A DNA stretch of 64,000 nt from the NCBI GenBank assembly GCA_947387485.1, contig CANDNT010000019.1:1-64000 (forward strand), in the 5' to 3' direction. The translations under genes and the position numbers were made by a program. Under the pieces are notes generated by a model. It worked only from the letters and a program-made list of their open reading frames with translations. It was not told the DNA's origin and did no database searches. Of this stretch, positions 5,995-21,021 are shown piece after piece. The stretch comes from Aquimarina rhabdastrellae. Its GTDB lineage: Bacteria; Bacteroidota; Bacteroidia; Flavobacteriales; Flavobacteriaceae. Positions within the stretch are counted from its first letter, which is position 1. Every line of letters starts with the position of its first letter.

Positions 5995-8559
5995 ATGAGT
6001 ACTACGTATCCTAAGATTACTATAAAGAACTCATTAAAGAAAGGTATCGTGATTTACGATGCCTTTCAAAATGATGAGCAAGATAAAAGTGTCGCTAATT
6101 ATTTTGGGACATTGACGGCTATCACCACTGTAGCAGCTGGTGAAGAACATACTTTTACACCTATACATGGGCCTATTTCTACCTATATTATTTTTGATAC
6201 CGATAACAAACCCATTACGCGAGAGTTTTCGATAGGAATGAGTCCAGAAACGTTTACCATTACTCAAGTAGCAGTTGATGTAATGGATTGTACAGAAGCA
6301 TTTTTAAAACTCATTCAAGATTCACCTACTAATGCAACGGTAGTACAATTTCAGCGTTTGATACAACATGGTAAAGCATCTGCTCAAGAGGTAAATCAAT
6401 TTTTTCAAAAAACAGAAGACTATAATACGGTAACGTTTATCTCGTATATGCTGGCTGTAGTAGCACTGGCACGTACCCCTAAAACCATAGATAAACCACC
6501 ACAAGAACAAGAATATAGTTTAAGTACGCTAGCAACATATATGGGATTTGATTGGCCATCGAGTATACCCGATGTAACCCTTTCTCATGTACATTGCTCA
6601 GAAACCAGCGAGGCTGTTAAAGTAGGAGGAGAACTCAACATCAATAATGTCACCTTTGCAGATGGCGTACTAGCACATATACTATCCTTTTTACCAGAAC
6701 CTACTATTAACTTTGCTATTGAGTTTATTTATAATGATGGCTTGTCTACAGGAGTAACCTGTTTAACCTTTGGGTTAGATGAAATTGAGATTCCGATAAC
6801 AAAGAATAAAGCCTTTTCTATCGAAAAACCAACCATGCTATTGACCTTAAACCCATTGTTTAAGTTTGTAGTATTTGAGATTAAAGCAACCATCCCGTTT
6901 AACATTTTTAATAGCCCTACTATTGACGCAAACATTGCGATGACAATAGACAATGTAGAAGCTGAGATAGGAGTAGAACTCACTGGTAATTCGTCTACGC
7001 TATTAACACCACCAGGAATAAAAGGATTGCACTTTGACTCTTTTGGGATAGGTATGGGATTAATCTTTGAACCTGCTGGTTTTGCAATAGGATTAGAAGG
7101 AACATTTCATATAGGTAATCAAGGACAAGTAGCATTAACAGACGATAAGTTTGCGATTATATGTGAGATGGAAGATGAGGTGCCTAATCCATTATACCTT
7201 GCCTTTTATGTTCCTAAGTTGGATTTAAGCGAAGTGATTACACTGTTTACCAATACAACAGTAGATATAGATATACCTGTGACTTTTGAACAGTTATCCT
7301 TCCGTTGGGCAGAAAATCCTATGGAACCTGTAATCCTGCCAGATGGTTCTCTAGCACCTATGGGATATGGTTTTAGTGGATATATGAATGTATTTGGTTT
7401 AAAGTTTTATGGCTATCTAGAAATAGATATGAATACTGGGATACATGGAACCATTACCATGAGCAAACTAGCTTTTGGAAATTTATTAACTATATCAGGT
7501 GATGGTAAAGGAGTAACTATAAAAGAAATTAATGGTAATGCAGTACCTAATAATACCATCCCGAAAACAGCTGCTGATCAAAAAGCAATAAAAGAAGCCA
7601 CAACCAAGCAATTGATTACTGCTGGAGGACCAGAAATGACCATAAGTACATCATCATCACCATATTTTACAATGGATGCAAAAATAAGTTTGTTTGATTT
7701 GGTAAACGAAAAAATTGATGCATCGATAAGTAATAATGGTATTGCTTTTGAACTGGATTATGGCGCAGTACTACAGACCAAAATGTCTTGTGTGTTAAAA
7801 GATTATCATAATTTTTCTGGTAACTTTTCTTATGGTATAGATATCAATGTACCATTACCTACTATAGCAGGATTTAGTTTAGGATCGATTCACCTAGATA
7901 CAGCTTGTTCAGTAAAGTTTGCAATAAGTACTTCTACAGCAGCAATCAAATTTGCCATACAAGGAGCATTTAAATTTGAAGGGGCACATTTACATTTTGG
8001 TCCTTTTGAAGCTGCTATTGATATTAGTAAAATTACAGAGGTAATATCTGCTATAGGAGCATATATAGTGGCTCATGCCAAAGATATTTTTGCCGATTTT
8101 ATTCAAGAAGCACAAAAATGGGCTGGATATGTTAAAGATGCTGTTATCCATGGCGTAACAGATGTAGCCAAAGGATTAAAAGAAGCCTATAATAAAACAG
8201 CTACAGAAACCGCATCGATTATGAACTCGGTAGGATATACGGCAACAGATATAGCTTCGGGTATTGGTAGCGCTTATAACTATTCTGCAACACAAATTGC
8301 CAAAGCGATGGAAGCAGGTTTTGGTGCTACAGATCAAGTAGTGGCAGATGCTTTTAAAGGTATAGGCATAGGAGCAAAAGCTACAGCAGAAGCGTTACAT
8401 GATGTCTTTGAATTAGATCCAAAAGATGTGAAAAATGTAATGATAGCAGCACAATACTCAGAAGATGCAGTAAAAGATGCTTTTGAAAGTATAGGAGGCG
8501 CATTTAAAGATGCCGCAGATAAAATATGGGGAGCGGTGAGCCATTGGGATCATTGGTAA
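5995..8559 (+). CDS. Large unknown protein: shared N-domain, beta-rich middle, helical repeats
   Basis: 854 aa, not recognised. Residues about 3-160 share the N-terminal domain of the 553-aa protein at 3227 (NSL..., VAAGE, VNQFF). Residues about 180-690 are beta-rich with alternating hydrophobic and polar residues and many Gly and Asn turns, for example GFAIGLEGTFHIG and GYGFSGYMNVFG. Residues about 700-854 are Ala-rich helices in units of roughly 22 residues (TATDIASGIGSAYN, SATQIAKAMEAGFG, AKATAEALHDVF) and could bind or insert into a membrane. There is no signal peptide. It is the last gene before the terminator at 8577. A lipid-binding or pore-forming role is possible from composition alone, but this is weak inference. 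Confidence 0.8.
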   Translation: MSTTYPKITIKNSLKKGIVIYDAFQNDEQDKSVANYFGTLTAITTVAAGEEHTFTPIHGPISTYIIFDTDNKPITREFSIGMSPETFTITQVAVDVMDCTEAFLKLIQDSPTNATVVQFQRLIQHGKASAQEVNQFFQKTEDYNTVTFISYMLAVVALARTPKTIDKPPQEQEYSLSTLATYMGFDWPSSIPDVTLSHVHCSETSEAVKVGGELNINNVTFADGVLAHILSFLPEPTINFAIEFIYNDGLSTGVTCLTFGLDEIEIPITKNKAFSIEKPTMLLTLNPLFKFVVFEIKATIPFNIFNSPTIDANIAMTIDNVEAEIGVELTGNSSTLLTPPGIKGLHFDSFGIGMGLIFEPAGFAIGLEGTFHIGNQGQVALTDDKFAIICEMEDEVPNPLYLAFYVPKLDLSEVITLFTNTTVDIDIPVTFEQLSFRWAENPMEPVILPDGSLAPMGYGFSGYMNVFGLKFYGYLEIDMNTGIHGTITMSKLAFGNLLTISGDGKGVTIKEINGNAVPNNTIPKTAADQKAIKEATTKQLITAGGPEMTISTSSSPYFTMDAKISLFDLVNEKIDASISNNGIAFELDYGAVLQTKMSCVLKDYHNFSGNFSYGIDINVPLPTIAGFSLGSIHLDTACSVKFAISTSTAAIKFAIQGAFKFEGAHLHFGPFEAAIDISKITEVISAIGAYIVAHAKDIFADFIQEAQKWAGYVKDAVIHGVTDVAKGLKEAYNKTATETASIMNSVGYTATDIASGIGSAYNYSATQIAKAMEAGFGATDQVVADAFKGIGIGAKATAEALHDVFELDPKDVKNVMIAAQYSEDAVKDAFESIGGAFKDAADKIWGAVSHWDHW

Positions 8560-8576
8560 TACTCCTTATAAAATAC

Positions 8577-8611
8577 TATCCAGTAGTGTGATGCTACTGG
8601 ATATGTTTTTT
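8577..8611 (+). terminator. Terminator after the 854-aa gene
   Basis: A perfect 10-bp stem (TATCCAGTAG at 8577-8586 with CTACTGGATA at 8594-8603) and a 7-nt loop, followed by TGTTTTTT. It separates the three-gene unit from the gene at 8632, which would then need readthrough or its own promoter. Confidence 0.85.
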
Positions 8612-8631
8612 GGAAATTAAAAGCATTAAAA

Positions 8632-9420
8632 ATGAAAGAAATAATAGCACCAACCACAACATCTTCTTCTTTTTCTGTTTTACAGCGGCTTTATGATAAG
8701 GGGCAAAAACATATCATGGAATGGTCTATACAGTTAACTGCCGAGACCGTGCAAGTGCGATATAAGCCTACTGTATATGTATATCCTAGACCTGATTTAA
8801 AAGTATATCAAAGTGTATACAATTGTTTACAAGAACTCCAGTGTCCAGAATCAATACTAGCACTACAACAAACAACTCATAAAACAGCCATGTATCAAGG
8901 TTTGAGAATACCAGAAGAATCCCATATACCTAAATGTTTGTTTATTCATGAAACAGAGCAAAACTTTATTCATGCTTATCGCTGGCAAACCAAAACAAGT
9001 TATGATCAATGTTATTATCACTATCAAAATACAGGGAAAATAGCAGCAAATACCACACGTATTCATAAAACATTGCAGCCATTTTTAAAAGCTATAACGA
9101 CAGGAGAGGAATTTTATAAGTTTTATGGGATATGGACTCAAGAATTTGAAGGACAGAAGAAAGAAGTATACCTTTCGTTTCCATCACGACCACAATTTAA
9201 ATGGGTATTACAGGCTATACAACCATTAGTATGTAAAACTGTATATGAACAATTAAAAACATTTGCTCAATTACCGTTTAAAAATATAGGATTTGATACC
9301 GTAGTACATCAAGAAAATCCCGTGATGACGATTTATTTTACATATATCCTTGATAAGACATTTCCTGCTAATTATAAAGAAATGCAGCAGTTGAGTTATG
9401 ATCCCATAGAGGTAATATAG
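8632..9420 (+). CDS. Unknown 262-aa protein
   Basis: Not recognised. The protein is soluble by composition, rich in Tyr, Gln and Lys, with no signal peptide or membrane segment. It has an alternating alpha/beta look, with strands such as VYVYPRP and VMTIYFTYIL. The start chosen is the ATG at 8632, 20 bp after the terminator T-run. It follows the unknown three-gene cluster in the same direction and may belong to it functionally despite the terminator. No catalytic motif could be identified. Confidence 0.75.
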   Translation: MKEIIAPTTTSSSFSVLQRLYDKGQKHIMEWSIQLTAETVQVRYKPTVYVYPRPDLKVYQSVYNCLQELQCPESILALQQTTHKTAMYQGLRIPEESHIPKCLFIHETEQNFIHAYRWQTKTSYDQCYYHYQNTGKIAANTTRIHKTLQPFLKAITTGEEFYKFYGIWTQEFEGQKKEVYLSFPSRPQFKWVLQAIQPLVCKTVYEQLKTFAQLPFKNIGFDTVVHQENPVMTIYFTYILDKTFPANYKEMQQLSYDPIEVI

Positions 9421-9536
9421 TTTTTGGGTTATTCTTAATTCGATTTTTATCGAAAGTCGGAATATGTATTACGATAGATATGACAATTTCTTTTGTTTAG
9501 TTTTCTTTAGATAAACTGTTTAACGAAAACTAATCA

Positions 9537-9564
9537 ACTCATTACTAATCACTCGTCACTTAAT
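9537..9564. repeat. Inverted partner of the repeat at 10187
   Basis: On the minus strand it reads ATTAAGTGACGAGTGATTAG followed by TAATGAGT. It is nearly the same as plus-strand 10187-10212 and similar to the TAATTAGTGATGAGTA part of the inserts in the CRISPR-like array. The two copies flank the SpoU methyltransferase gene in inverted orientation. Confidence 0.7.
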
Positions 9565-9572
9565 AAAAAAAC

Positions 9573-10112
9573 TTAAAACTTTAGTTTACTAAACAAATCC
9601 CATAAGACTACACCAGCACTTACAGAAATGTTAAGAGAATGTTTTGTACCGTATTGGGGGATTTCGATTACCGCATCACTTGAAGAAACAATAGCTTGTT
9701 GAACCCCTTTAACTTCGTTACCAAAAACTACAGCATAAGTAGTATCTGGTTGAGGTTTAAGGTCTTGAAGCATTACGGCATCTTCGGCTTGCTCGATAGC
9801 AAGAACTTGAACTCCGTCTTTTTGTAATGCATCAACGAGTGCAATGCTATCTTCTACATGTTCCCATACAACAGTATCGGTTGCACCTAACGCAGTTTTC
9901 TGGATATCTTTATGAGGCGGTGTCGCAGTGATACCACAGAGGTATATTTTCTGGATTAGAAAAGCATCAGAAGTACGAAATACAGAACCTATATTATTAA
10001 GACTTCTAATATTATCAAGAATCACAATGATAGGCGTTTTGGCAGTAGCCTTAAATTCGTCTACCGTAATACGATTAAGTTCGCTATTCTTTAATTTTCT
10101 GTTCTTATCCAT
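9573..10112 (-). CDS. SpoU/TrmH-family RNA 2'-O-methyltransferase
   Basis: 179 aa, matching the SPOUT class that transfers a methyl group from S-adenosylmethionine to a ribose 2'-OH of tRNA or rRNA. All three family motifs are visible: motif 1 at about 32-51 (DNIRSLNNIGSVFRTSDAF, with the conserved Asn and Arg), motif 2 at 129-137 (VFGNEVKGV), and motif 3 at 151-168 (IPQYGTKHSLNISVSAGV), which together form the knotted cofactor site. It lacks the extra N-terminal substrate domain of the longer TrmH relatives, which is usual for the short flavobacterial copies. A TATTTTTG element on the minus strand (10125-10118) lies only 5 nt from the ATG, so the mRNA may be leaderless. The exact RNA target is unknown. 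Confidence 0.92.
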   Translation of the reverse strand: MDKNRKLKNSELNRITVDEFKATAKTPIIVILDNIRSLNNIGSVFRTSDAFLIQKIYLCGITATPPHKDIQKTALGATDTVVWEHVEDSIALVDALQKDGVQVLAIEQAEDAVMLQDLKPQPDTTYAVVFGNEVKGVQQAIVSSSDAVIEIPQYGTKHSLNISVSAGVVLWDLFSKLKF

Positions 10113-10186
10113 AGCCGCAAAAATATAAAAACTATTGAGTAGGACTATAGTTTTTTTGAGATCAAGACTAATTGTTGTGTTTTTGT

Positions 10187-10212
10187 ATAAGTGACGAGTG
10201 ATTAGCGATGAG
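10187..10212. repeat. Dispersed intergenic repeat, plus orientation
   Basis: ATAAGTGACGAGTGATTAG followed by CGATGAG. It is nearly identical to the reverse complement of 9537-9564 across the methyltransferase gene, and related to the AGTAATTAGTGATGAGTA stretch in the CRISPR-array inserts. Confidence 0.7.
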
Positions 10213-10297
10213 AGATGAGTGAGATTGAATCTATAATTTAAAAGGTTTTTTGTTGTGAAATTGGTTAGTTAGGTAGTTTTTGAGTGCTGTCATCTCG

Positions 10298-10348
10298 ACA
10301 AGCTCGATGACCAGACAAGCTCGATGACCAGACAAGCTCCATGACCAG
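10298..10348. repeat. 17-bp tandem repeat, three copies
   Basis: Three consecutive units of ACAAGCTCGATGACCAG (10298, 10315, 10332; the third has one change), followed by a diverged partial unit from 10349. It lies in the intergenic region upstream of mutS. No function is evident. Confidence 0.85.
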
Positions 10349-10546
10349 ACAAGCCCTGTGATAAGTATAAATCTAAAATTAAAACTCGTTAAGCTACATT
10401 CGATATTCATTAGTTATCAATTGGTCTATCGAAAGTATAGCGTAAAATTTGAAATGAGATAAGGCGATGACTAAAAGAACTCTTAAACAATTTCAAAAAC
10501 GGAAATAGAATGATTATTTTAGCAGCTGATAAAAAATTGATTACCA

Positions 10547-13183
10547 TTGACTGCAAAAAAAGCTAAAAAAGCAAAGAAGGAAACCCCATTAATGAAGCAA
10601 TACAATAGCATCAAAGCCAAATATCCAGATGCATTGCTACTATTTAGGGTAGGAGATTTTTATGAAACTTTTGGACAAGATGCAATAAAGACAGCAGAGA
10701 TTCTCAATATCATTTTGACCAAAAAAGGAGCAGGAACAGAAGGAGAAACAGAACTAGCAGGTTTTCCGCATCACTCCTTAAATACTTATTTGCCTAAGCT
10801 TGTTAAAGCAGGAGAACGTGTAGCGATTTGTGATCAATTAGAAGATCCTAAACAAACCAAAACTATCGTAAAGCGAGGTGTAACAGAATTGGTAACACCA
10901 GGAGTTGCACTTAATGATGAGGTACTACAAAGTAAGAATAACAATTTTTTATGCGCAGTACATTATGGAAAGAAACAATTGGGTGTGGCTTTTCTAGACG
11001 TGTCTACGGGAGAGTTCTTAACAACTCAAGGAGACGAAGCTTATATCGATAAGTTATTACAAAATTTCGCGCCAAGCGAAATCTTAATTGTTAAGCAAAA
11101 GAAACAAACGTTTTTTAAAGATTTTGGAGAAGATTTTCATACGTTTTTTCTTGAAGATTGGGTGTTTAAAGCAGATTATGCAGAGGAGACTTTAAATACA
11201 CACTTTGAGACGAGTTCGCTTAAAGGATTTGGGATAGCACACCTACAAGAAGGAATCATTGCTGCAGGAGTAGTGTTACATTATTTGGGCGAAACACAAC
11301 ACCATAAACTACAACACATCACTCGTATTAATCGCATTGCAGAGGATGAATATATCTGGATGGATCGTTTTACGATTCGTAACCTAGAATTATATCACTC
11401 GGTATCTAATAATGCAGTAACTTTATTAGACGTGATTGATAAAACGATTTCGCCTATGGGAGGTCGTTTGCTTAAAAGATGGTTAGCATTACCTTTAAAA
11501 AATGCTGTAAGCATACATAAGCGACACGAGGTGGTACAGTACTTTTTGGATAATACAGGATTGCATCAAGAAGTACAGCAGCACATCAAGCAGATAGGGG
11601 ATTTAGAACGTTTAATTTCTAAAGTAGCTACAGGAAAAGTAAACCCTAGAGAAGTGATACAATTAAAAAACTCTCTAGAAGCGATAGTACCTATTAAAGC
11701 AGCAGCATTACAAAGTGGTAATGAAGCCTTAAAAATAATAGGAGATACACTACATGATTGTGAGTTGTTACGTCAAAAAATTACAGCTACACTTAATGAA
11801 GAAGCTCCAGTTAATATCCTTAAAGGAAATAGTATTGCAAGCGGTGTTATAGAAGAACTAGATGAATTGCGTTCGATAGCTTTTTCTGGGAAAGATTACT
11901 TAGATAAGATGCTAGAACGAGAAATGGAAGAAACAGGAATTACATCACTTAAAATAGCATCTAATAATGTATTTGGATACTATATAGAAGTACGTAATAC
12001 ACATAAAGATAAAGTACCCGATACATGGATTCGTAAACAAACTCTAGTAAGTGCAGAACGCTATATCACCGAAGAGTTAAAAGAATACGAAGCTAAGATT
12101 CTAGGAGCAGAAGAAAAAATACTGATACTAGAGCAGCAAATCTTTGCTGATTTAATTACATGGATGAACGAATATATCCAACCAGTACAGCTTAATGCAG
12201 GATTGATAGGGCAGCTAGATTGTTTAGGATCGTTTGCACAACTAGCGGTAGAAAATCGCTATGTACGACCAGTAATTGAAGAGAGTTATGACTTAGAAAT
12301 TAAAAATGGTCGCCATCCTGTAATCGAAAAACAGTTGCCTATAGGAGAAGAATACATCGCAAACGATGTTTTTTTGGATAGAGATCGCCAACAGATGATT
12401 ATGATCACAGGACCTAATATGAGTGGTAAATCGGCGATACTAAGACAAACAGCTTTGATTGTATTGCTAGCGCAAATGGGATGTTTTGTTCCAGCCGATA
12501 GTGCTAGAGTGGGTATTGTAGATAAGATTTTTACACGTGTAGGAGCGAGTGATAATATCTCTATGGGAGAATCAACCTTTATGGTCGAGATGAATGAAAC
12601 GGCAAGTATCTTGAATAATATCTCTGATCGAAGTCTGGTTTTACTAGATGAAATAGGTAGAGGAACGAGTACGTATGATGGGATTTCGATAGCATGGGCA
12701 ATAAGTGAATTTTTGCATGAACATCCTACAAGACCTAAAACACTATTTGCAACGCACTATCATGAATTAAATGAGATGTGTGAAACCTTTGGGCGAATCA
12801 AGAATTATAATGTAGCGGTAAAAGAACTTAAAGATACCGTATTATTCTTGCGTAAGTTAGTTCCAGGAGGAAGTGAACACAGTTTTGGGATTCATGTAGC
12901 AAAGATGGCAGGAATGCCACAGCAAGTAATACATCGCGCAAATAAGATGTTAAAGAAGTTAGAAAAATCACATAGTAGTGACGAACTAGCCGAAAAGATA
13001 AAAGATGTACAAGAAGATGACGAAATGCAATTGAGTTTCTTCAATCTTGATGATCCTTTATTAGAAGAAATCAAAGAAGAAATACTACATACAGACATAG
13101 ATACCTTAACTCCAGTAGAAGCATTGATGAAATTAAATGAGATTAAACGTATGTTAATCAGGAAGAAAGGGGTTAAAGCGTAA
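10547..13183 (+). CDS. mutS: DNA mismatch repair protein MutS
   Basis: 878 aa, full-length MutS, the dimeric ATPase that recognises mismatches and short loops after replication. The N-terminal mismatch-binding domain has the F-Y-E motif at F38-Y39-E40 (GDFYETFG). The P-loop is at about 622-629 (GPNMSGKS), Walker B at about D701-E702 ([14 protein letters not shown]), and the following FATHYHEL segment is intact. The start is a TTG at 10547; the residues it adds (TAKKAKK...ETPLMKQYN) match the usual flavobacterial N-terminus, whereas the first ATG at 10592 would remove part of it. It is transcribed alone, upstream of the tRNA-Gly promoter. Confidence 0.97.
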
Positions 13184-13211
13184 ATTTTTTTAATTTTTTT
13201 CTTGAAAAAGC

Positions 13212-13241
13212 TTTGTAGAACGTAGAAATGTTCTATCTTTG
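13212..13241 (+). promoter_or_regulatory. Bacteroidetes-type promoter of the tRNA genes
   Basis: TTTG at 13212-13215 and TATCTTTG at 13234-13241, with an 18-nt gap, fit the Bacteroidetes housekeeping consensus (TTTG near -33, TAnnTTTG near -7). Transcription would begin about 30 nt upstream of tRNA-Gly. Confidence 0.75.
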
Positions 13242-13277
13242 CATCCGCAATCACGATTGCTCGTTCATACAAAGAAT

Positions 13278-13349
13278 GCGAAAGTAGCTCAGGGGTAGAG
13301 CATCACCTTGCCAAGGTGAGGGTCGCGGGTTCAAATCCCGTCTTTCGCT
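13278..13349 (+). tRNA. tRNA-Gly (GCC)
   Basis: A 72-nt cloverleaf. Acceptor stem GCGAAAG pairs with CTTTCGC, the anticodon loop is TTGCCAA with anticodon GCC, and the T arm contains GGTTCAAAT. The discriminator base is T, as usual for tRNA-Gly. CCA is not encoded. It is followed 18 nt later by tRNA-Leu. Confidence 0.95.
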
Positions 13350-13360
13350 CTGAGTACGCA

Positions 13361-15025
13361 CTAACACGCTGAAGTGGTGGAATTGGTAGACACGTTGGAC
13401 TTAAAATCCAATGACCATTTAGGTCGTGCGGGTTCAAGTCCCGCCTTCAGTACTGAAAGGGAAAGATCATTAGAGATAGGATCTTTCCCTTTTTTATTTT
13501 CACTAGTATTCTTTGAGATTGAGGGAATTAGCATAAATAAAGAGTTCACTCTTAAGGTTCGATAACAGTCATTTTCATAATCAAATAGAATACCTTCAGG
13601 AAATACAATATGTTGAATAGTTTTTTTAAGCGGTAGATTTCCTAACTCCCACGTTTTTGACAAGTTAAGAGACATATGTAAAGCTATATTAATCGATTTG
13701 TTAAGGTTCGATAAATTAACAGGTTTTTTAGCAGCAGCAATATGTAATTCCTCAATTTGTGAATCCAAACGAGATTTAAATTTATCAAATTGTTCTCTTG
13801 AAATTTCTTCAAAAACATAACGTTCTTCAAGACGATCAATCTTTTGTTGTAGCTCTAGAATTTTGTTTTGTCCTTTTTCAGCTTGCTCAATTTCATATTG
13901 AAATTCTTGTACAAAAGCATTTTTAATAATTTCACGATAAGGAACAATTAAACGCTTATCAGCTAATTGATATTTTTGAAGCTCAGCAATAAATTTTTGA
14001 TGCATGATTTTGGCACTGCGATTTTCCTTACTACCACGACGATTATTTTTATAATAATACAATCCTTTTTTCTTCACGAGATAGCCTGTGTAATTCGTAC
14101 CACAAGAAGCAGCCTTTATAAACTGTTTAAGCGGCAGATTTTCATCATCACCATGATGTGATACTCCATAGTTACCATTACGGTTAACAATCTTATTAAC
14201 GCGAAGAAAAAGCGATTTAGAAACTAGGGGAGGATGTTTTCCTTCAATTACCTCATTTGGGAGGTGAGAAGAAACAATTAAGCCACAATAAAAAGGATTC
14301 CTAAGAATGACTCCAATGCGTTTAGGAGTTAATTCAAGCCCTTTTTCTTTTAACTGTCTAGAGATTTCAGCCATGGATAAATCAAGATTAGCCTTTAGCT
14401 CAAAAGCAATTTTTAGTAATTCACCATCCTCATTAATTACAATGTTTTGTTCTTTGTGCTTTCCAGCTCCTAAATTGGTATAGCCAATAGGGACATTACC
14501 CATCCAATAGCCTCTGCGAAGTTTTTCCTTAATCCCAGTAACAATTTTATCACGACGAAGCTCATTATCAAATTGACTAAAGATATAATATAGATTTTGT
14601 TGAAAAGCTCCAGCAGAAGTAGAGGTGTCAACTTCTTGAGTAGCAGAAAGGGTTTTAATTCCTTGTTTCTTTAACTGTTCACTGATAGAAGCTCCATTAG
14701 CTCCAGTACGAGAAAAACGATCATAAGAATAGACAATGATATAGGCGACATTTTTATGCCGTTTTACATAGGAAAGCATTCGTTGAAACTCCACACGTTC
14801 ATCACTACGAGCAGACTCATAAGTACCACCAAAATATTCAACTATAGTATACCCTTTGCGTTTGGCAAAGAGTTCACAATATTTACGCTGAGTATCTAAA
14901 CTAGCGTTATTATCAGCTTGTTCTTTAGTAGAGACTCTAGTATAGATCACTGCATTGGTATTAGAGCGCATTTGATCATGAGTACTCGTTTTTGCAAATT
15001 GTTTAAAAATAGATAAATCGTTCAT
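13361..15025 (-). CDS. Large serine recombinase, C-terminus reading into tRNA-Leu
   Basis: A 554-aa frame. Residues about 24-165 are a resolvase-type catalytic domain with nucleophile S32 (YTRVSTKEQ) and the Arg-rich active site in YDRFSR. The recombinase domain follows at about 170-270 and a coiled coil at about 370-430. The usual Cys-rich zinc-ribbon positions between them are largely missing, with only one Cys near AASCGTN. The last about 45 residues are encoded by the antisense of the tRNA terminator and of tRNA-Leu itself (ending VSTNSTTSAC), so they cannot have evolved as a normal domain. Either the native 3' end was lost at integration, or the frame is open by chance past the true end. 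It is likely the integrase of the element at 13361-19600. Confidence 0.85.
   Translation of the reverse strand: MNDLSIFKQFAKTSTHDQMRSNTNAVIYTRVSTKEQADNNASLDTQRKYCELFAKRKGYTIVEYFGGTYESARSDERVEFQRMLSYVKRHKNVAYIIVYSYDRFSRTGANGASISEQLKKQGIKTLSATQEVDTSTSAGAFQQNLYYIFSQFDNELRRDKIVTGIKEKLRRGYWMGNVPIGYTNLGAGKHKEQNIVINEDGELLKIAFELKANLDLSMAEISRQLKEKGLELTPKRIGVILRNPFYCGLIVSSHLPNEVIEGKHPPLVSKSLFLRVNKIVNRNGNYGVSHHGDDENLPLKQFIKAASCGTNYTGYLVKKKGLYYYKNNRRGSKENRSAKIMHQKFIAELQKYQLADKRLIVPYREIIKNAFVQEFQYEIEQAEKGQNKILELQQKIDRLEERYVFEEISREQFDKFKSRLDSQIEELHIAAAKKPVNLSNLNKSINIALHMSLNLSKTWELGNLPLKKTIQHIVFPEGILFDYENDCYRTLRVNSLFMLIPSISKNTSENKKGKDPISNDLSLSVLKAGLEPARPKWSLDFKSNVSTNSTTSAC
13368..13452 (+). tRNA. tRNA-Leu (TAA)
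   Basis: An 85-nt type II tRNA with a long variable arm. Acceptor GCTGAAG pairs with CTTCAGT (first pair G-T), the anticodon loop is CTTAAAA with anticodon TAA, the T arm contains GGTTCAAGT, and the discriminator is A. The reverse strand of this gene is in frame with the 3' end of the serine recombinase, suggesting it is or was an integration site. Confidence 0.95.
13456..13498 (+). terminator. Terminator of the tRNA-Gly/tRNA-Leu transcript
   Basis: A 13-bp perfect stem (13456-13468, AAAGGGAAAGATC, with 13480-13492) followed by a T-rich run. It starts 4 nt after tRNA-Leu. On the opposite strand the same bases are read as codons of the serine recombinase frame. Confidence 0.92.
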
Positions 15026-15060
15026 AAAGAAGTGTTGTAATAATTAAGCAGAAATAAAGA

Positions 15061-15249
15061 TTAAGTGTCACGTAAACTACTGACAATAGCCTTAGCAATA
15101 GTTTCCATTTGATGAATTAACTCTTGAGCTTGTTGATTAGAATAATGTTCTAAACCTTCAAAACTTTTTAAACGTTTAGGAGTCATAGGCTCAACAGGAT
15201 TAAAAATATTAAAATTATTTAAGTCATTGGTACATTTTTTAGATGACAT
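15061..15249 (-). CDS. Small unknown protein of the serine-recombinase element
   Basis: 62 aa from the ATG at 15249 (MSSKKCTND...). A longer frame could use a GTG at 15315, but that would begin inside the hairpin at 15309-15330, so the internal ATG is preferred. The C-terminal half is helical (NQQAQELIHQMETIAKAIVSS). It lies 35 bp upstream of the recombinase on the same strand and may be a directionality or DNA-binding factor; no domain is recognised. Two TAAGACCT hairpins occupy its presumed 5' leader, suggesting RNA-level control. Confidence 0.6.
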   Translation of the reverse strand: MSSKKCTNDLNNFNIFNPVEPMTPKRLKSFEGLEHYSNQQAQELIHQMETIAKAIVSSLRDT

Positions 15250-15272
15250 AAAAAGAAAGAAGTGCTTAGCAA

Positions 15273-15330
15273 TCAGAGGTCTTACTGAGGGATAAGCGAT
15301 TTTCACTGTAAACACAGGTCTTAGTGTTTA
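15273..15330 (-). promoter_or_regulatory. Two TAAGACCT-loop hairpins in the leader of the 62-aa gene
   Basis: On the minus strand, 15330-15309 folds as a perfect 7-bp stem (TAAACAC with GTGTTTA) closing the 8-nt loop TAAGACCT. 15288-15273 folds as a 4-bp stem (TCAG with CTGA) closing the same loop. The loops are identical while the stems differ, and the same design recurs four times at 18041-18239 on the plus strand. They lie 24-81 nt upstream of the ATG at 15249, a suitable place for a binding site of an RNA or DNA regulator. Confidence 0.7.
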
Positions 15331-15369
15331 AAAATATATAAAAATGAAAATTATCAAGAATAAAACAGA

Positions 15370-16041
15370 TTAAGTTTTTGTATTGATAATATCATTTAAC
15401 TTATGAAACATTTCTCCTTGCATGCGATACGCATTTTGGAGTTCGACTTGTTGGGCATTGCATTTGGCTGTCAAAGCTTCCATTTGTTTGCGGAGATTAG
15501 CTTTTTCAGTAATTTGCTGTACAATAAGTCCGAGAATGGTCGTATTAGAATCTGATAACTCAGTTGAGAGTTCACGACCAAAAACAAGTTTTTCATTAGC
15601 AAGAAGATAAGCATAGACTTCTTGTTTGATATCAAGAGCCATATCTTGATGTTGCTCCATGAATTTATCGATAAGTTTAAGAACTTGATCTCTTCTTAAA
15701 ATAGCTTCAACTTCAGGCGCAATAACTTCTTCGGCAGAAAAAGAGACATCTTCTTTAAAGAAATAATTTGCATCCAGGTTATAGTTCTGAATAAAATGAG
15801 CTAAAGACTTTAAAGGAACACCGCTAGATTTCTTTTGCATTAAAGAGATAAAGATTCTATTGGTGGGATTAAGTTCAATAGCGAGCCCATTAAGACTATG
15901 AGGTTCTTTTCCCTCTTTTCTATTATGAGCAATAACATATTTAGCAGCCTCTAAGAAACGTTCATAGACGCGTACAAGCGTAGGGTCATCCCAATTTTTC
16001 ATTTTTAGACGATTCAATTGAACATGATTTTGATATAACAA
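15370..16041 (-). CDS. Unknown regulator-like protein with C-terminal coiled coil
   Basis: 223 aa. The N-terminal third is helical with a segment like a degenerate helix-turn-helix (SLAHFIQNYNLDANYFF). The C-terminal about 60 residues form a probable coiled coil (ITEKANLRKQMEALTAK). There is no signal peptide or membrane segment. The first Met is at 16041; M14 (MKNWDDPTL) is an alternative start. It is divergent from the small gene at 16240 across a region with nested inverted repeats and on the same strand as the recombinase, so a regulator of the element is plausible. Confidence 0.7.
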   Translation of the reverse strand: MLYQNHVQLNRLKMKNWDDPTLVRVYERFLEAAKYVIAHNRKEGKEPHSLNGLAIELNPTNRIFISLMQKKSSGVPLKSLAHFIQNYNLDANYFFKEDVSFSAEEVIAPEVEAILRRDQVLKLIDKFMEQHQDMALDIKQEVYAYLLANEKLVFGRELSTELSDSNTTILGLIVQQITEKANLRKQMEALTAKCNAQQVELQNAYRMQGEMFHKLNDIINTKT

Positions 16042-16122
16042 TGATAGTTAAAAAATAACAAAAAATGAAAAGATTGTCTTTTAAATTGATTTTTTAATTA
16101 TTTTTGAAGTTGTAAATACAAA

Positions 16123-16203
16123 AGACTTACGATCTCTAATCGATGATCAATTACTTTCCCAAAAATCGATAGTAAGTCTAAACTATGCCCAAAAAGGGTA
16201 TAG
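16123..16203. promoter_or_regulatory. Nested inverted repeats between divergent genes
   Basis: AGACTTAC (16123-16130) pairs with GTAAGTCT (16172-16179); inside them ATCGAT occurs at 16139-16144 and 16165-16170. A separate hairpin follows: CTATGCCC (16183-16190) with GGGTATAG (16196-16203), one G-T pair. The site lies between the divergent genes at 15370-16041 and 16240, so an operator or recombinase site is plausible. Confidence 0.55.
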
Positions 16204-16239
16204 CCTGATATATGTTCAATTGAAAAACACAGCAATAAA

Positions 16240-16374
16240 ATGGAAAAGCAAAAAATAGAAAGAAAACCTGTTGCATCTAATTTTAAAGAACTAAAAAAGA
16301 AATTAGATAAATACAGATCTCTGAAATTAAAAAAACGTCCAACAACGATCTATAGAGCCTCACTAGAATCTTAA
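16240..16374 (+). CDS. Small basic protein (44 aa)
   Basis: An ATG-started frame of 44 aa, very rich in Lys and Arg (MEKQKIERKPVASNFKELKK...), ending 11 bp before the HTH gene at 16386. Charge and position suggest a small nucleic-acid-binding protein made with its neighbour. It is too short to assign a family. Confidence 0.5.
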   Translation: MEKQKIERKPVASNFKELKKKLDKYRSLKLKKRPTTIYRASLES

Positions 16375-16385
16375 AATACAATACT

Positions 16386-17723
16386 ATGTATTATTTGAAT
16401 TATACCCATACGCTAAGAGCGTTAGATGGTTATGTTGCGGTGCATAATAAAGAAAAGACGAATTACAAGGAAAGAGTGCGACCAGCAATGGTCGCAACAG
16501 CACAACAGTTATTAAAAATCTATGGAATAGCCCTAGCTAAAGCCTATAAAAGAAAGGCGTTTACCAAAGAGGAATTACCAGCACTACGTACCAATAATGT
16601 GCAATTAGCAAAACTGACACATGCCAGTACACGAACTGTACAAAGACACCTAGTGCGATTACAAGCAGCAGGAATCATAACCAAAAAGAAATGGAATGGA
16701 TCAAAAGCACCATTTGAGCTATGGTTTACGGCTAAAGTATTGTCCTTAAAACTACCAGAAATGCCAGCAGCAGTAACAGCAGCTACACTATTAGATAAAG
16801 AAACGGTTGTTAATAACCCTGTGGAAAAGCCTGTTAATAAGCTAAAAAACGAAGTAGATTACAACTTTTTGTCGTATACTGATAATCAGTGTTTTAAAAA
16901 TAAAAATACGACAATAGGTCGCCATACAGATACTAGTAACACTACTAGTAACATAAATAACAGAATAATAAGGGTTAATAAGTTATTAACCCCCATAGAG
17001 AAAATTCAAAATTTAAGTAAAAGGTTAACAGGATACACAGGACAAGAGCGGACTCCGTTACCGCTACGACCTAGTTTGCGAACAGGATACACAACTGGAA
17101 ACACACAAGAAAAAGCCCTGCAAAAAAACAAAGTACAGGAAAAAGTTGTCTCGTGGGAGGATAAGCCGTCAGAACAGGACAAAAAAATAGAAAGGCAAAC
17201 TGCCCGCGAGTCACTCCTGCAAAGCTATGCTGAGAAATTATGGGAGGAGGCAAAAAAGAAACTCTACAGAAAGACGCATTTGAGCATGACCCAAGAAGAA
17301 ATCGCAAAAGAACTCCTGTATGAGTGGTATGCTCCAGTCTCTAATGAAAAATTAGCACAGGTACATGGGGTCTATACCAAACGGATAGAGCTAGTTAGAC
17401 GATATGTGAATCTAGCCCCTGATGTGCGATATGTACAATTACCCTATTTGTTTTTTGATCCAGAAAATCCAAATGGATTTACACGAACAAAAACATGGGT
17501 ACATCAAGATTCGGCATATCAAAAGCGCAAACGCATCCAACGGAAATTCTTTGCTATACTGAATTATTTCAAGAGTAATGAAACAGCAGAAAGTAGCAAA
17601 GCTATTCCACGATTAGAATGCTTTAAACGCTGTGAAGCAGCTATAAAAACACTAAAGCGACCAGAATTATTACAGGAGTTTTATAAAATCTCGTATCAAA
17701 TAGTACAACCCGAATCTTCATAA
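16386..17723 (+). CDS. Helix-turn-helix protein of the element (possible replication or transfer role)
   Basis: 445 aa. Residues about 70-125 form a winged-helix-like domain (TNNVQLAKLTHASTRTVQRH, then LQAAGIITKKKW). Residues about 140-270 are low-complexity and basic, and about 280-445 form a second, Lys/Arg-rich helical domain. The layout resembles proteins carried by Bacteroidetes mobile elements, but no initiator or relaxase motif was seen. It is preceded by the 44-aa gene with 11 bp between, and followed by a hairpin terminator. Function: DNA binding, probably element maintenance or regulation (inference). Confidence 0.7.
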   Translation: MYYLNYTHTLRALDGYVAVHNKEKTNYKERVRPAMVATAQQLLKIYGIALAKAYKRKAFTKEELPALRTNNVQLAKLTHASTRTVQRHLVRLQAAGIITKKKWNGSKAPFELWFTAKVLSLKLPEMPAAVTAATLLDKETVVNNPVEKPVNKLKNEVDYNFLSYTDNQCFKNKNTTIGRHTDTSNTTSNINNRIIRVNKLLTPIEKIQNLSKRLTGYTGQERTPLPLRPSLRTGYTTGNTQEKALQKNKVQEKVVSWEDKPSEQDKKIERQTARESLLQSYAEKLWEEAKKKLYRKTHLSMTQEEIAKELLYEWYAPVSNEKLAQVHGVYTKRIELVRRYVNLAPDVRYVQLPYLFFDPENPNGFTRTKTWVHQDSAYQKRKRIQRKFFAILNYFKSNETAESSKAIPRLECFKRCEAAIKTLKRPELLQEFYKISYQIVQPESS

Positions 17724-17730
17724 AAAGAAA

Positions 17731-17760
17731 AACCTCTAATGACAATGTTAGAGGTTAATT
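17731..17760 (+). terminator. Hairpin after the HTH gene
   Basis: A perfect 9-bp stem (AACCTCTAA at 17731-17739 with TTAGAGGTT at 17748-17756), 8 nt past the stop codon. It is followed by AATTCTTT, a weak T-run. Confidence 0.65.
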
Positions 17761-18010
17761 CTTTAAATATAACAGTAATTCAAACAATACCCTGGTTAAT
17801 TTGAGATTATGTGGAAATTTTTGAATGGTGTATTTTAATAAAAACTTCTCGAAACAAAAGTAATCAAGGAGACTATCAGGTAGCTAAACCTGATGTTATT
17901 TAAAAGTTATATTGTGGTAAAACCATAATTTATAAGATAATGCAATAGTTTTTGTTGTTAAAAAACATATAAAAAATTATTTGATGTTAAAATAAATAAA
18001 TGATATTTCA

Positions 18011-18018
18011 TATCTTTG
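18011..18018 (+). promoter_or_regulatory. Candidate -7 element upstream of the hairpin array
   Basis: TATCTTTG matches the TAnnTTTG consensus. The nearest upstream TTTG (17980-17983) is 27 nt away, longer than ideal. Transcription would start around 18025, just before the first hairpin. Confidence 0.45.
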
Positions 18019-18040
18019 AAAAACTAAAGATGATCTCTAA

Positions 18041-18239
18041 CCATAGACTAAGACCTGTGTATGGAGTCTAATTAAGAATTTTTATAGTACAAAAAACGTT
18101 ATAAGACCTTAACGCAATATAAAAAGTAATTAGCATGATTGGAGGAAAATAAACAACTAAGACCTGTTGTTGTTTTCTTTGTGAAAGCTTCACAAATTAA
18201 TCTTATCTAAAGTAAAGAAGACGCTAAGTCCTGCGCTTC
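18041..18239 (+). ncRNA. Four TAAGACCT-loop hairpins in tandem
   Basis: Four hairpins about 55-65 nt apart with the same 8-nt loop but different stems. 18041-18064: CCATAGAC with GTGTATGG, one mismatch. 18097-18114: CGTTA with TAACG, perfect. 18152-18171: AACAAC with GTTGTT, perfect. 18217-18239: loop TAAGTCCT, stem CGC with GCG then GAAG with CTTC around a bulged A. Independent stems with a conserved loop point to a selected RNA (or cruciform) structure whose loop is the recognition element. The same structure occurs twice at 15273-15330 on the minus strand. Confidence 0.65.
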
Positions 18240-18297
18240 CTACTTCCAAAAAATAGAGTTATAAATGCACTTTTTTTAAGAGCCAATATTATTATGC

Positions 18298-18427
18298 CTT
18301 GTAGAAGGGAAAGCTACAAGAAGTATATTCATATACAGGAACTTTAAGAAATGGTCATAAGAACATCAATGTATTATTTATAAGTTGATGATGTTTTCAT
18401 AGTTGTTTAGTGCGCACATCAACTATG
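18298..18427 (+). ncRNA. Further hairpins downstream of the TAAGACCT array
   Basis: CTTGTAG with CTACAAG (18298-18320), GTATA with TATAC (18323-18336), CATCAA with TTGATG (18364-18390) and CATAGTTG with CAACTATG (18398-18427). No long frame is open here; a 16-codon frame starts at the ATG at 18294. The stretch looks like part of a structured, possibly non-coding transcript. Confidence 0.4.
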
Positions 18428-18489
18428 AGAATATAAAATCATTTATAGATAAGCTATAAACTAAAAAGAATTTAATGGTAGAGTAGAAG

Positions 18490-19560
18490 GGGAAGTCTTG
18501 CTATTACTGGTTCGGGAGAGATTGGTTCTTTTCCCGAAAAAGTTGCTATTATTTCTGAGGAGAAAATTCTATAGAGCTGGGAAAAAGTAGAGGATCTTCG
18601 GGAAGCCTTGTTATTACTGGTTCGGGAGAGATTGATACTTTTCCTGAAAAAGTTGCTATTATTTCTGGGGAAGAAAATTCCCTAGAGCTGGGGAAAAGTA
18701 GAGAATCTTCGGAAAGCCTTGCTATTACAGGTTCGGGAGAGGTTGGAACTTTTTCCGAAAAAGTTGGTGCTATTTCTGGGGAAGAAAAATCCCTAGAGCT
18801 GGGGAAAAGTAGAGAATCTTCGGGAAGCCTTGTTATTACTGATCGCGGAAGAATTGACACTTTTCCCGAAAAAGTTGCTATTATTTCTGAGGAGAAAATT
18901 CCCTAGAGCTGGGGAAAAGTAGAGAATCTTCGGGAAGCCTTGATATTACTGGTTCGGGAGAGATTGACATTTTTCCCGAAAAAGTTGATGCTATTTCTGG
19001 GGAAGAAAATTTACTAAAGCTGGAGAAAAGTGAAGCATCATTGGAAAGCCATGTTATTACTGGTTCGGGAGAGGTTGGAACTTTTCCAAAAAAGTTGATG
19101 CTATCTCTGAGGCAGAAAATTTCTTAGAGCTGGAAAAAAGTACTGATTCTTTGGAAAGCCTTGCTATTACTGGTTCGGAAGAGGTTGGTGTTTTTCCCGA
19201 AAAAGTTGGTGCTATTTCTGGGGAAGAAAAATCCCTAGAGCTGGGGAAAAGTAGAGATTCTTCGGGAAACCTTACTATTACTGGTTCGGAAGAGATTGCT
19301 ACTTGTCCCAAAAAAGTTGCTGTTATTTCTGGGGAAGAAAATTCCCTAGAGCTGGGGAAAAGTGAAGCATCTTTGAAAAGCCACGTTATTACTGGTTCGG
19401 GAGAGATTGACACTTTTTCTGTAAAAGTTGATGCTACCTCTAGGGAAGAAAATTCCCTAGAGCTGGGGAAAAGTACAGATTCTTTGGAAAGCCTTGTTAT
19501 TACTGGTTCGGAAGAGATTGCTACTTTTTCCGAAAAAGTAATGATACTCTTCAGGAGAAT
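18490..19560 (+). repeat. Ten-copy 111-bp tandem repeat, decayed 37-aa repeat coding sequence
   Basis: The phrase ATTACTGGTTCGGGAGAG recurs ten times, at 18503, 18613, 18724, 18835, 18945, 19056, 19166, 19277, 19388 and 19499 (some copies changed). The interval is 111 bp six times and 110 bp three times. In the plus frame a unit reads as 37 residues around ITGSEEI..FPEKV and NSLELGKS. The right part (19151-19576) stays open for 141 codons, while the 110-bp units shift the frame. No start codon or gene body is attached upstream. The most likely reading is a degraded repeat protein gene. The minus strand is also partly open (18549-18860 and 19057-19413), so coding strand is not certain. Confidence 0.8.
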
Positions 19561-19576
19561 TTTTGAACTGAAATAG

Positions 19577-20121
19577 TTTAAGCCTCAAAAAATACAGTCG
19601 ATATTGTAAAGAAAGATATTCTCAATTCTAGAAAATCATGTTATTTTTTAAATGTAAACCATAAAATAAATATGCTTAAACCATAGTTGTATTTCATTTG
19701 TACTTAGATGTCAATCCATTGTAAAATACCTTAGTTTTTAGTCATAAAAAAAGATGTAATACGTGTAATGTTACATCGACTAACGATTCGCTAAGAAAAA
19801 GAAATTAACCGTTAGTTTATCTAATCATTATAAACTAACATAAACAATACAACAGTTTCATAATATACTGTTCGTTTTTTGATTGATGAATGAGCCTCTA
19901 GTATCCCTCACTAGAGGTCTTCATTTTTTATAGGGTAATAGCATGGCATGAATACTTCTTTGTTTTGGTTAAAGAATAAGAGACGAGTAGAGCATTCGTA
20001 TTTTGCTTTAAGCAAAAGTTATACAACCTTAGATGCTTTTATAACAATGATTAGGTAAGAGGTTGTTTTTAAATAACTTTTTATGACTTATATTTCTTTG
20101 GTTATAACCATATCCAATAGT
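19577..20121. other. Intergenic region with inverted repeats
   Basis: No gene is seen. GTTAGTTTAT (19811-19820) pairs perfectly with 19830-19839, and GATGTAA with TTACATC near 19754-19777. A terminator-like hairpin lies at 19895-19930. No copy of the tRNA-Leu 3' end was noticed that could mark the far end of the element. Confidence 0.55.
19895..19930 (+). terminator. Intrinsic terminator
   Basis: CCTCTAGT (19895-19902) pairs with ACTAGAGG (19910-19917), followed by TCTTCATTTTTT. No recognised plus-strand gene lies directly upstream, so it may end the transcript of the hairpin/tandem-repeat region. Confidence 0.7.
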
Positions 20122-21021
20122 TTAGTTGCTATTCTTTTTTATCGTTCGATTTAAAACATAGCCGGAAATCCCCCCTAATAATGTCCCAAGAACCTCTCCT
20201 GTAATCATTTTGGCTAATCCTAAAATCAAGATAGTTGTCGTTAATAAAAATACTGTAGCTACGTCTAATAAGGTCTTTTTATTAAGAATCTTTGGAGCAT
20301 CTTTTCCTTTTTTATATGCCCAATATGAGGGAACTAAAAACAATACTAAAATGGTAATACAAAATGCAGGGATTCCAAACCAAATGGCAATTCTATGAAT
20401 GCTATTATTTTCTTGTTTCTTATCATAAATACTCATGATATTTCTTTCTATAACAGCAACCTCTTTTTGGAGTATAAGGAGTCTTTTTCGTACTTCTGTT
20501 AAGGCATTATCAATACTTGAAATAACCTTTTGTTGATCTGCTTTGATTTTTTCTATAGCAAACGTATTGAGAATTCGTTGTTCTTCTTTATCCGATAATC
20601 CTATAAGAATACTATTGTTTTGAAGACTTATACTTTTTGGATATTGCGCTTTTGTATTTAATAAAAAGTGTTTTGGAGCAATTTCATGTATCTCGGCTAT
20701 ATTGATGGTTGAACGTAAACTCAAGGCGTTTTCAATCTCATCAATTAGTTCATCTATGGTGATTTCTTCAGCCGTATATTGTTGCCATACTTTTTCTATT
20801 TGTGTTAAAGAAATCTGCTTGATTTGAGATAATTCATCAACTAGAATAGTTTGTACTAATTTCCAATCTTTTTGTTCGTTATGTATCGTCGTAATTTCCT
20901 CTTCGAGTTTGTTGATTAAACGAATTTGTTGAAACTCACTCTCTGGTACTACAAATTTAGTGTCTTGAGCAAAGAAGAATGAATTGTTAAAAAATATAAG
21001 TACAAAAAGTAGGCGATACAT
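20122..21021 (-). CDS. Unknown membrane protein with periplasmic coiled coil
   Basis: 299 aa. Residues 1-19 are a signal peptide (LLFVLIFFNNSFFFAQ). Residues 30-195 are helical and Glu/Lys/Gln-rich with probable coiled coils. Membrane helices follow at about 213-233 (FGIPAFCITILVLFLVPSYW) and 253-272 (VATVFLLTTTILILGLAKM), with a Gly-rich third near 275-290. No family is recognised. It is transcribed toward the terminator region, 81 bp after the lipoprotein gene at 21103. Confidence 0.75.
   Translation of the reverse strand: MYRLLFVLIFFNNSFFFAQDTKFVVPESEFQQIRLINKLEEEITTIHNEQKDWKLVQTILVDELSQIKQISLTQIEKVWQQYTAEEITIDELIDEIENALSLRSTINIAEIHEIAPKHFLLNTKAQYPKSISLQNNSILIGLSDKEEQRILNTFAIEKIKADQQKVISSIDNALTEVRKRLLILQKEVAVIERNIMSIYDKKQENNSIHRIAIWFGIPAFCITILVLFLVPSYWAYKKGKDAPKILNKKTLLDVATVFLLTTTILILGLAKMITGEVLGTLLGGISGYVLNRTIKKNSN

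Follow-up and report, generated by a model that had tools for sequence, protein, structure and literature searches.

What reads a set of short stem-loops that share a loop but not their stems, and to what end, is the question raised by a mobile element of Aquimarina rhabdastrellae (Flavobacteriaceae). We analyzed the first 64,000 nucleotides (nt) of contig CANDNT010000019.1 (assembly GCA_947387485.1; hereafter, the window), in which a large serine recombinase gene stands beside a small gene for a protein of 62 amino acids (aa), sm62. A first-pass annotation of this DNA had described six stem-loops with one 8-nt loop (a variant of it in one) and unrelated stems, two in the leader of sm62 and four on the plus strand after a -7-like element (Table 1), and its interpretation is, overall, partly supported here. 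Twin same-loop hairpins ahead of a small integrase-side gene recur in mobile elements of the genus, and they look like an unreported RNA switch that possibly times excision.

The six window hairpins are real and come in two sets, a twin in the leader and four on the opposite strand. All six TAAGWCCT sites lie where they had been reported, each closed by a stem of 4-7 pairs; five hairpins carry exactly TAAGACCT, and the loop of the sixth (18225, +) is TAAGTCCT. Contiguous Watson-Crick pairs beside the loop number 7, 4, 2, 5, 6 and 3 (A1, A2 and D1-D4, in this order); when Watson-Crick pairs next to the loop are counted with at most one mismatch or bulge, the stems have 7 pairs (15323, -), 4 (15284, -), 6 with a G.G mismatch (18049, +), 5 (18102, +), 6 (18158, +) and 6 with a bulged A (18225, +). 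By this latter count the window background probability of a stem of at least 4 pairs is 0.0117, and the multiplied probabilities of the six sites come to ~1e-16, a figure that ignores the after-the-fact choice of loop. Between 15000 and 18480, TAAGACCT closes five stems, vs. a maximum for any loop of one in 176/200 and two in 24/200 dinucleotide shuffles; window-wide, one further loop has six stems (TAGAGCTG, with its complement on the other strand), solely as copies within a 111-bp tandem repeat. The octamer TAAGWCCT is itself not rare (8 in the window vs. 5.2 expected; at least 8 in 17/100 shuffles). The stem is 0 for its two remaining copies in the window and 0-1 for the 14 copies at six loci elsewhere, so a stem does not come automatically with the loop. 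Hairpin A2 has an extra feature missed earlier, a lower helix around its TCAG-loop-CTGA, and its loop ends 27 nt upstream of the sm62 ATG. In folds of a 236-nt piece and of the leader, all six loops come out as terminal loops; a shifted register is preferred for D1 when a 100-nt piece is folded alone.

Table 1. Features of the element, in window coordinates.
Feature	Position	Strand	Description
Large serine recombinase	13361..15025	-	Resolvase and Recombinase domains
62-aa gene sm62	15061..15249	-	behind leader; small helical protein; homologues in loci of related serine recombinases
Leader hairpin A2	15264..15297	-	lower helix GCTTA/TAAGC, internal loop, upper helix TCAG/CTGA; loop TAAGACCT at 15277-15284
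Leader hairpin A1	15309..15330	-	7-bp stem TAAACAC/GTGTTTA; loop TAAGACCT at 15316-15323
p223, 223-aa protein	15370..16041	-	upstream of leader; helical N-terminus, then coiled coil
p445, 445-aa protein	16386..17723	+	helix-turn-helix (HTH; weak) and weak replication-initiator likeness; element-family marker
TATCTTTG	18011..18018	+	fits TAnnTTTG; starts 38 nt before first loop of distal array
Distal hairpin D1	18041..18064	+	stem CCATAGAC/GTGTATGG, one G.G; loop TAAGACCT
Distal hairpin D2	18097..18114	+	stem CGTTA/TAACG; loop TAAGACCT
Distal hairpin D3	18152..18171	+	stem AACAAC/GTTGTT; loop TAAGACCT
Distal hairpin D4	18217..18239	+	stem GAAG-A-CGC/GCG-CTTC; loop TAAGTCCT

Relatives of the recombinase were found in 15/299 genomes of the family at E <= 1e-60 and, in the named genome collection, as 413 stretches, the best 80 of which were kept. 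At two of these related recombinases (L042 and L043), the leader of the 62-aa homologue has two hairpins with the loop CGCTACAA (CGATGCAA in one) on stems CGGC/GCCG and CCGA/TCGG, and like pairs occur in elements that carry p445 and a tyrosine-type integrase. A search with a 16-base pattern (one mismatch allowed) gave 20 places in 15/66 genus genomes vs. 6 control matches; one place (G079:C38) was discarded as coding. A covariance model was built from 19 leaders, aligned with MAFFT and with the structure written from one row. It gave 25 matches in the same 15/66 genomes, 21 of them at E < 1e-8; 19 of the 25 had served to train the model. The other six are G067:C15, G084:C9:2619, a second leader in G030:C1, G065:C8, G084:C28 and a distal site of G072, the last four being weak (E 2e-5 to 7.5e-4). 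Two copies of the small gene are present in each of L292, L042, L293 and L134, with a model match before each copy (first-copy matches of L293 and L134 weak, E 5e-5 and 5e-4). Beyond the genus, model R2 gave, in 299 family genomes drawn from a larger group and scanned with stricter filters, four matches at per-genome E 0.02-0.1, explained by chance, and the detectable family is therefore confined to one genus within what was searched. The first-pass annotation had expected hairpins that keep their pairing near homologous recombinases, which is what we see within the genus but not beyond it.

Other searches were narrower. Twin same-loop hairpins were also sought by a strict scan of 91 upstream regions (79 of the 80 best recombinase-relative loci, with L177 left out as lacking upstream DNA, plus L089-L099 and the window), which flagged five, with a pair in 2.1% of shuffles. 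L127, L134 and the window were kept; L099, which is a tRNA, and L173, where a 7-mer has a mismatch, were dropped; L130 and L132, found later, were missed by the scan. Viral contigs gave 0 matches for the leader and distal patterns, and in 15 viral-contig stretches with a TAAGACCT pair, the copies written CTAAGACCTG, to which the check was limited, had no stem of at least 4. The leader had no match in phage records and the distal pair none in plasmid records, the only records searched with each; p454, a protein of related elements, was absent from phage records and had distant matches in two Haliscomenobacter plasmids.

The stems of these relatives covary at the corresponding place, which bears out the proposal that structure is under selection. 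In the alignment of 19 leaders (alignment A2), changes on both sides were seen in 10/15 pairs (43 cells vs. 17.1 ± 3.7 in shuffles; slid controls <=9). In the alignment with matches added to the training leaders (A4; 27 rows, 25 distinct), which, having been fitted to the model, is biased in its favour, they were seen in 14/15 pairs (66 cells vs. 22.8 ± 4.2; slid controls <=10). In the reading direction of the small gene, G-U pairs outnumber A-C by 22 vs. 5 (25 rows; a tally over related rows, not over independent events). This excess on the sense strand fits RNA and argues against a DNA cruciform, the two forms between which the first-pass annotation had left the choice.

The leaders are also constant in place. 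Among 20 of them, loop two ends 27 nt before the small-gene ATG in 11 (including the window), 26 nt in 5 and 33-34 nt in 3, L289 being unclear, and the loop-to-loop spacing is 39 nt in the window and 40-45 nt in the 19 others. At L287, L292 and L299 (the last two alike) the integrase gene is convergent, running opposite to the small gene, and the leader therefore goes with the small gene. The hairpins had been tied to a serine-recombinase element; instead, 13/19 leaders stand beside tyrosine-type integrases and 6 beside serine recombinases (L042, L043, L132, L134, L289 and L293). Ten of the 13 are of a 455-aa type by similarity (Pfam SAM domain above cut-off in L079, below it in L082) and three of another type (L287 and L292 by Pfam, L299 by eye). 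The broader suggestion that the hairpins are linked to the regulation of their element is supported.

Most leader pairs have the loop CGCTACAA. L132 has CGATACAA in both hairpins, L292 has CAATAAAA/CAATACA at its first copy and also CGCTACAA twice, and genome G065 has CAATGAAA/CAGTGAA in L334 and CGCTACAA (one CACTACAA) in L289, L290 and L291, so that loops can differ between leaders within one genome. As the shared loop of a family, TAAGACCT does not stand: among the 66 genus genomes, exact pairs occur in 5 genomes, at 9 places; the window accounts for 3 and the six others have stems of 0-1, which leaves pairs with stems in this genome only. A reversed control of the TAAGACCT pair pattern had several times more matches in the genus than the pattern itself. 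Weak model matches at the corresponding leader of other elements (L307, 1423-1498, -, E 0.018; L040, 9067-9145, +, E 0.14) have an internal loop UGA/AG and, by eye, loops of 5-7 nt; the hairpin architecture may thus be older than the 8-nt loop.

Loop reuse extends to a second site. Six elements (L077, L079, L082, L286, L294 and L298) have a second hairpin pair downstream of p445, built as CTCC-loop-GGAG or nearly so (hairpin one of L077 and L082 has GGAT instead); among these 12 distal hairpins, 10 loops are CGCTACAA and 2 are one-base variants. In 6/6 elements, TATATTTG lies 88-91 nt upstream of the first distal loop. TAnnTTTG is the consensus of the Bacteroidota -7 element, and the '-7-like element' reported ahead of the four window hairpins is indeed present as TATCTTTG, the counterpart of TATATTTG at 38 nt, in a window where the motif has a frequency of 0.12 per 180 nt. 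Stretches with a leader but without p454 have no distal pair, and those fetched for L078, L288 and L291 end before the distal place. Behind the distal pairs come short repeats; L285, which continues L079, then has a 1766-aa gene and later helicase-like and ATPase genes; the large operon there (289-1320, 6875-11239) includes a strawberry-notch-type helicase and a Zot/A32-like ATPase. The repeats, centred on CTATAG/CTATAAG (L285 16960-17316, -; L286 300-740, -; L082 2000-2500, -; L298 19248-19463, +), form chains of open reading frames (ORFs) of 6-7 codons (such as MTREFLL, MTKSFL and MSCNFSL), the next ATG mostly lying 2 nt after the stop; some L082 and many L294 copies have GTG starts or early stops. 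In the window, the four hairpins are followed by 111-bp repeats unrelated to those of the relatives, with no clear gene or large operon behind. This tandem repeat (37 codons, 9.5 copies, 18493-19539) has broken frames and is possibly the remnant of a repeat-protein gene.

We call the window a diverged instance of the same arrangement, an assignment that appears justified by position, spacing, distance to the ATG, the two-helix shape of A2 and loop reuse: its twin same-loop hairpins are spaced by 39 nt, loop two lies 27 nt upstream of the ATG of a small integrase-side gene, and the same loop is repeated in a distal transcript behind TAnnTTTG, a feature of full-size elements only. We reasoned that twin hairpins showing the same 8-nt loop may form a structured RNA operator, located on the mRNA immediately ahead of a small gene associated with the integrase, in which the stems would need only to pair and the loop would be recognised by a trans-acting factor. 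Because the loop is what is kept, something presumably reads it, and the first-pass suggestion of reading in trans is to this extent supported; the almost constant gap between loop two and the start codon leads us to infer control of translation. A bound leader would block or open initiation of the small gene and so set the time of element excision, and as the second same-loop set would start a transcript downstream of p445, excision and the large operon could be coupled through one factor; the four-hairpin set of the window may now be a decoy titrating the factor. To an operator of this kind, read in trans and controlling a small gene that is probably like a recombination directionality factor (RDF), we give an even chance. 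Its extension to an RNA password is doubtful: each element would carry its own loop on the excision-gene leader and main operon, a cognate factor would read only that loop, and the array would be a buffering decoy. The MerR255 gene often ends just before the leader. The MerR-like 255-aa protein of L079 (12090-12857) looks like a fusion, residues 13-155 matching shorter MerR-like proteins (L043, L132, L289) and residues ~175-254 matching stand-alone 81-101-aa proteins of other elements. An antisense partner was rejected, as complements of the loop outside the hairpins are limited to scattered copies and the 3' end of a tRNA-Met, a match taken as coincidence because L079 and L286 lack it.

A number of observations weigh against these readings. 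For the window's membership, covariance model R1 had 0 matches in the window, and an unfiltered R2 search of 13000-20000 returned noise in 20 rows, of which the best (E 0.19) lay elsewhere, two (E 4.6 and 8.6) touched the distal array and none fell on the leader hairpins; window A1 lacks the internal loop; and the repeat units differ (111 bp vs. ~26 or 49 bp in relatives), for which a shared repeat array was dropped. Folds of the window hairpins have z-scores of -1.3 to -3.3, with D1 in another register. For the family, the loops of a pair are unlike in L329 (CGCTAAAA vs. CAAGAAAA, 3/8 differing) and L043 (2/8 differing), and L333, like the leaders of the first gene copies in L042, L293 and L134, had no aligned first hairpin with a matching loop. 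In A4, 14/25 rows do not form the first A1 pair and 10/25 do not form the innermost lower-helix pair, and a count of pair types is less telling, being reached by 58/500 shuffles for the alignment of 19 leaders and by 15 for A4. For the mechanism, no normal-sized gene lies 27 nt behind the distal sites; of the 15 leader-bearing genomes, G030 and G088 lack MerR255, G010 and G079 keep a distant MerR part only, and p454 is missing from G010, G030 and G088; and a fold search gave nothing for the RDF role, which rests on place and size.

Four other explanations deserve weighing beside an operator read in trans. That the pattern arose by chance would draw on the commonness of the octamer and the more frequent matches of the reversed control, but the product of stem probabilities, five same-loop stems vs. 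at most two in 200 shuffles, the copies at outside loci with stems of 0-1 and the covarying relatives at the same position leave this a negligible prospect. It is likewise very improbable, if less extremely so, that the recombinase or a partner uses the hairpins as sites in cruciform or single-stranded DNA; recombinase genes are nearby and the stems would pair in DNA too, yet the G-U excess fits sense-strand RNA, the hairpins are common to elements with serine and tyrosine integrases, and the distal set lies kilobases away from the integrase behind a promoter-like motif. A host protein or host small RNA might instead read the loops, with the elements merely exploiting the reader, as could be argued from the dominance of one loop in the genus and from CGCTACAA leaders in G030 and G088, without MerR255 and p454, and in elements with unrelated integrases. 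We consider this unlikely, since loops differ between leaders of one genome and a single element of the window genome uses an altogether different loop six times.

Processive antitermination, in which twin hairpins at RNA polymerase would allow terminator read-through in both operons, is unlikely too, though we rate it slightly above a host reader. Phage HK022 put (putL, putR) is reported to comprise two structured ~70-nt RNAs per element, with two stem-loops each and one per early operon (PMC9378689). Six full-size relatives have the same anatomy, whereas the window's second set has four hairpins. The distal sites, moreover, stand behind a promoter-like motif and ahead of a long operon. Lambda nut, as commonly described, offers an element-specific hairpin loop (boxB, read by N) at two operons of one element, which the element-specific loops at two sites recall; a nut site, however, has one hairpin plus boxA, and no N-like protein family was seen among the element proteins scanned (boxA was not searched for). 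Further, put acts on RNA polymerase to promote read-through without a dedicated trans factor, whereas the Aquimarina hairpins keep their loops, and loop two lies at an almost constant distance from the start codon. The small gene itself follows the leaders at a fixed short distance, read-through in L287, L292 and L299 would go antisense into the integrase, and a consensus scan of the window's + strand gave nothing terminator-like behind the array.

Likeness to other known RNAs is partial. Sponge RNAs of CsrA/RsmA such as CsrB are familiar as several one-loop hairpins on one RNA with the same loop in an mRNA leader, but TAAGACCT and CGCTACAA lack GGA, the Aquimarina array is in a mobile element, and no CsrA-like match was seen among the proteins scanned. 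Operators of the MS2 and PP7 coat proteins, in the usual description, share a conserved loop, an unpaired purine below a short upper helix, free stems and a place near a start codon, whereas the Aquimarina hairpins are twin, with a loop of 7-8 nt. The conAn system likewise has a cis RNA where the long operon of a mobile element begins, but it pairs a protein, ConAn1, with an RNA, conAn2, on Gram-positive plasmids, and the available part of that report describes no twin same-loop hairpins (PMC8955417). TwoAYGGAY, a table entry of PMC2864571, and other twin-hairpin candidates also have two hairpins with the same loop consensus, but with another loop and in other hosts. With Rfam 15, only tRNA reached the gathering threshold in window 13000-20200, L286, L298 and L292, and Flavo-1 appeared below threshold in L298, far from the hairpins. 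A literature search, mostly without subscription papers, found no description of such twin-hairpin leaders; one survey reports 28 candidate RNAs in the vicinity of integrase, sortase or phage domains (PMC8040213).

From its place and size, sm62 is probably an RDF; its protein has 75 matches, 58 of them distinct, in the 86 loci scanned (some overlapping). An 84-aa ORF with a GTG start also runs through the leader hairpins, and the 62-aa ATG start is likely rather than proven, as homologues (limited to 78 aa) are similar in length. A search of solved structures gave no convincing relative of sm62 or p223. The N-terminus of p223 has a weak likeness to repressor HTH domains (best Foldseek E 0.096), and p223 is linked to p251 of the relatives via proteins of L040 and L041. 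The C-terminal codons of the recombinase run antisense through tRNA-Leu; this overlap (13361-13453) adjoins tRNA-Gly and mutS, and the L042 and L290 (L134) relatives lie in the same neighbourhood. The distal array presumably belongs to the same element as the leader; the right end was not found, and a comparison of the tRNA-Leu end with the rest of the window gave no exact repeat of at least 14 bases except a T-rich 16-mer.

If the proposed operator is right, integrative elements of marine Bacteroidota control excision via RNA loops, a layer missed by protein-based annotation. It could explain the joint induction or separation of several elements per genome, some without their own regulators of these kinds, and, as these are natural hairpins with one loop on unrelated stems, the reader could be fished by the loop alone (CGCUACAA, UAAGACCU). 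Should each element indeed carry its own loop as a password, unrelated elements in one cell would be insulated from each other, and small elements with another's loop would be co-induced with that element.

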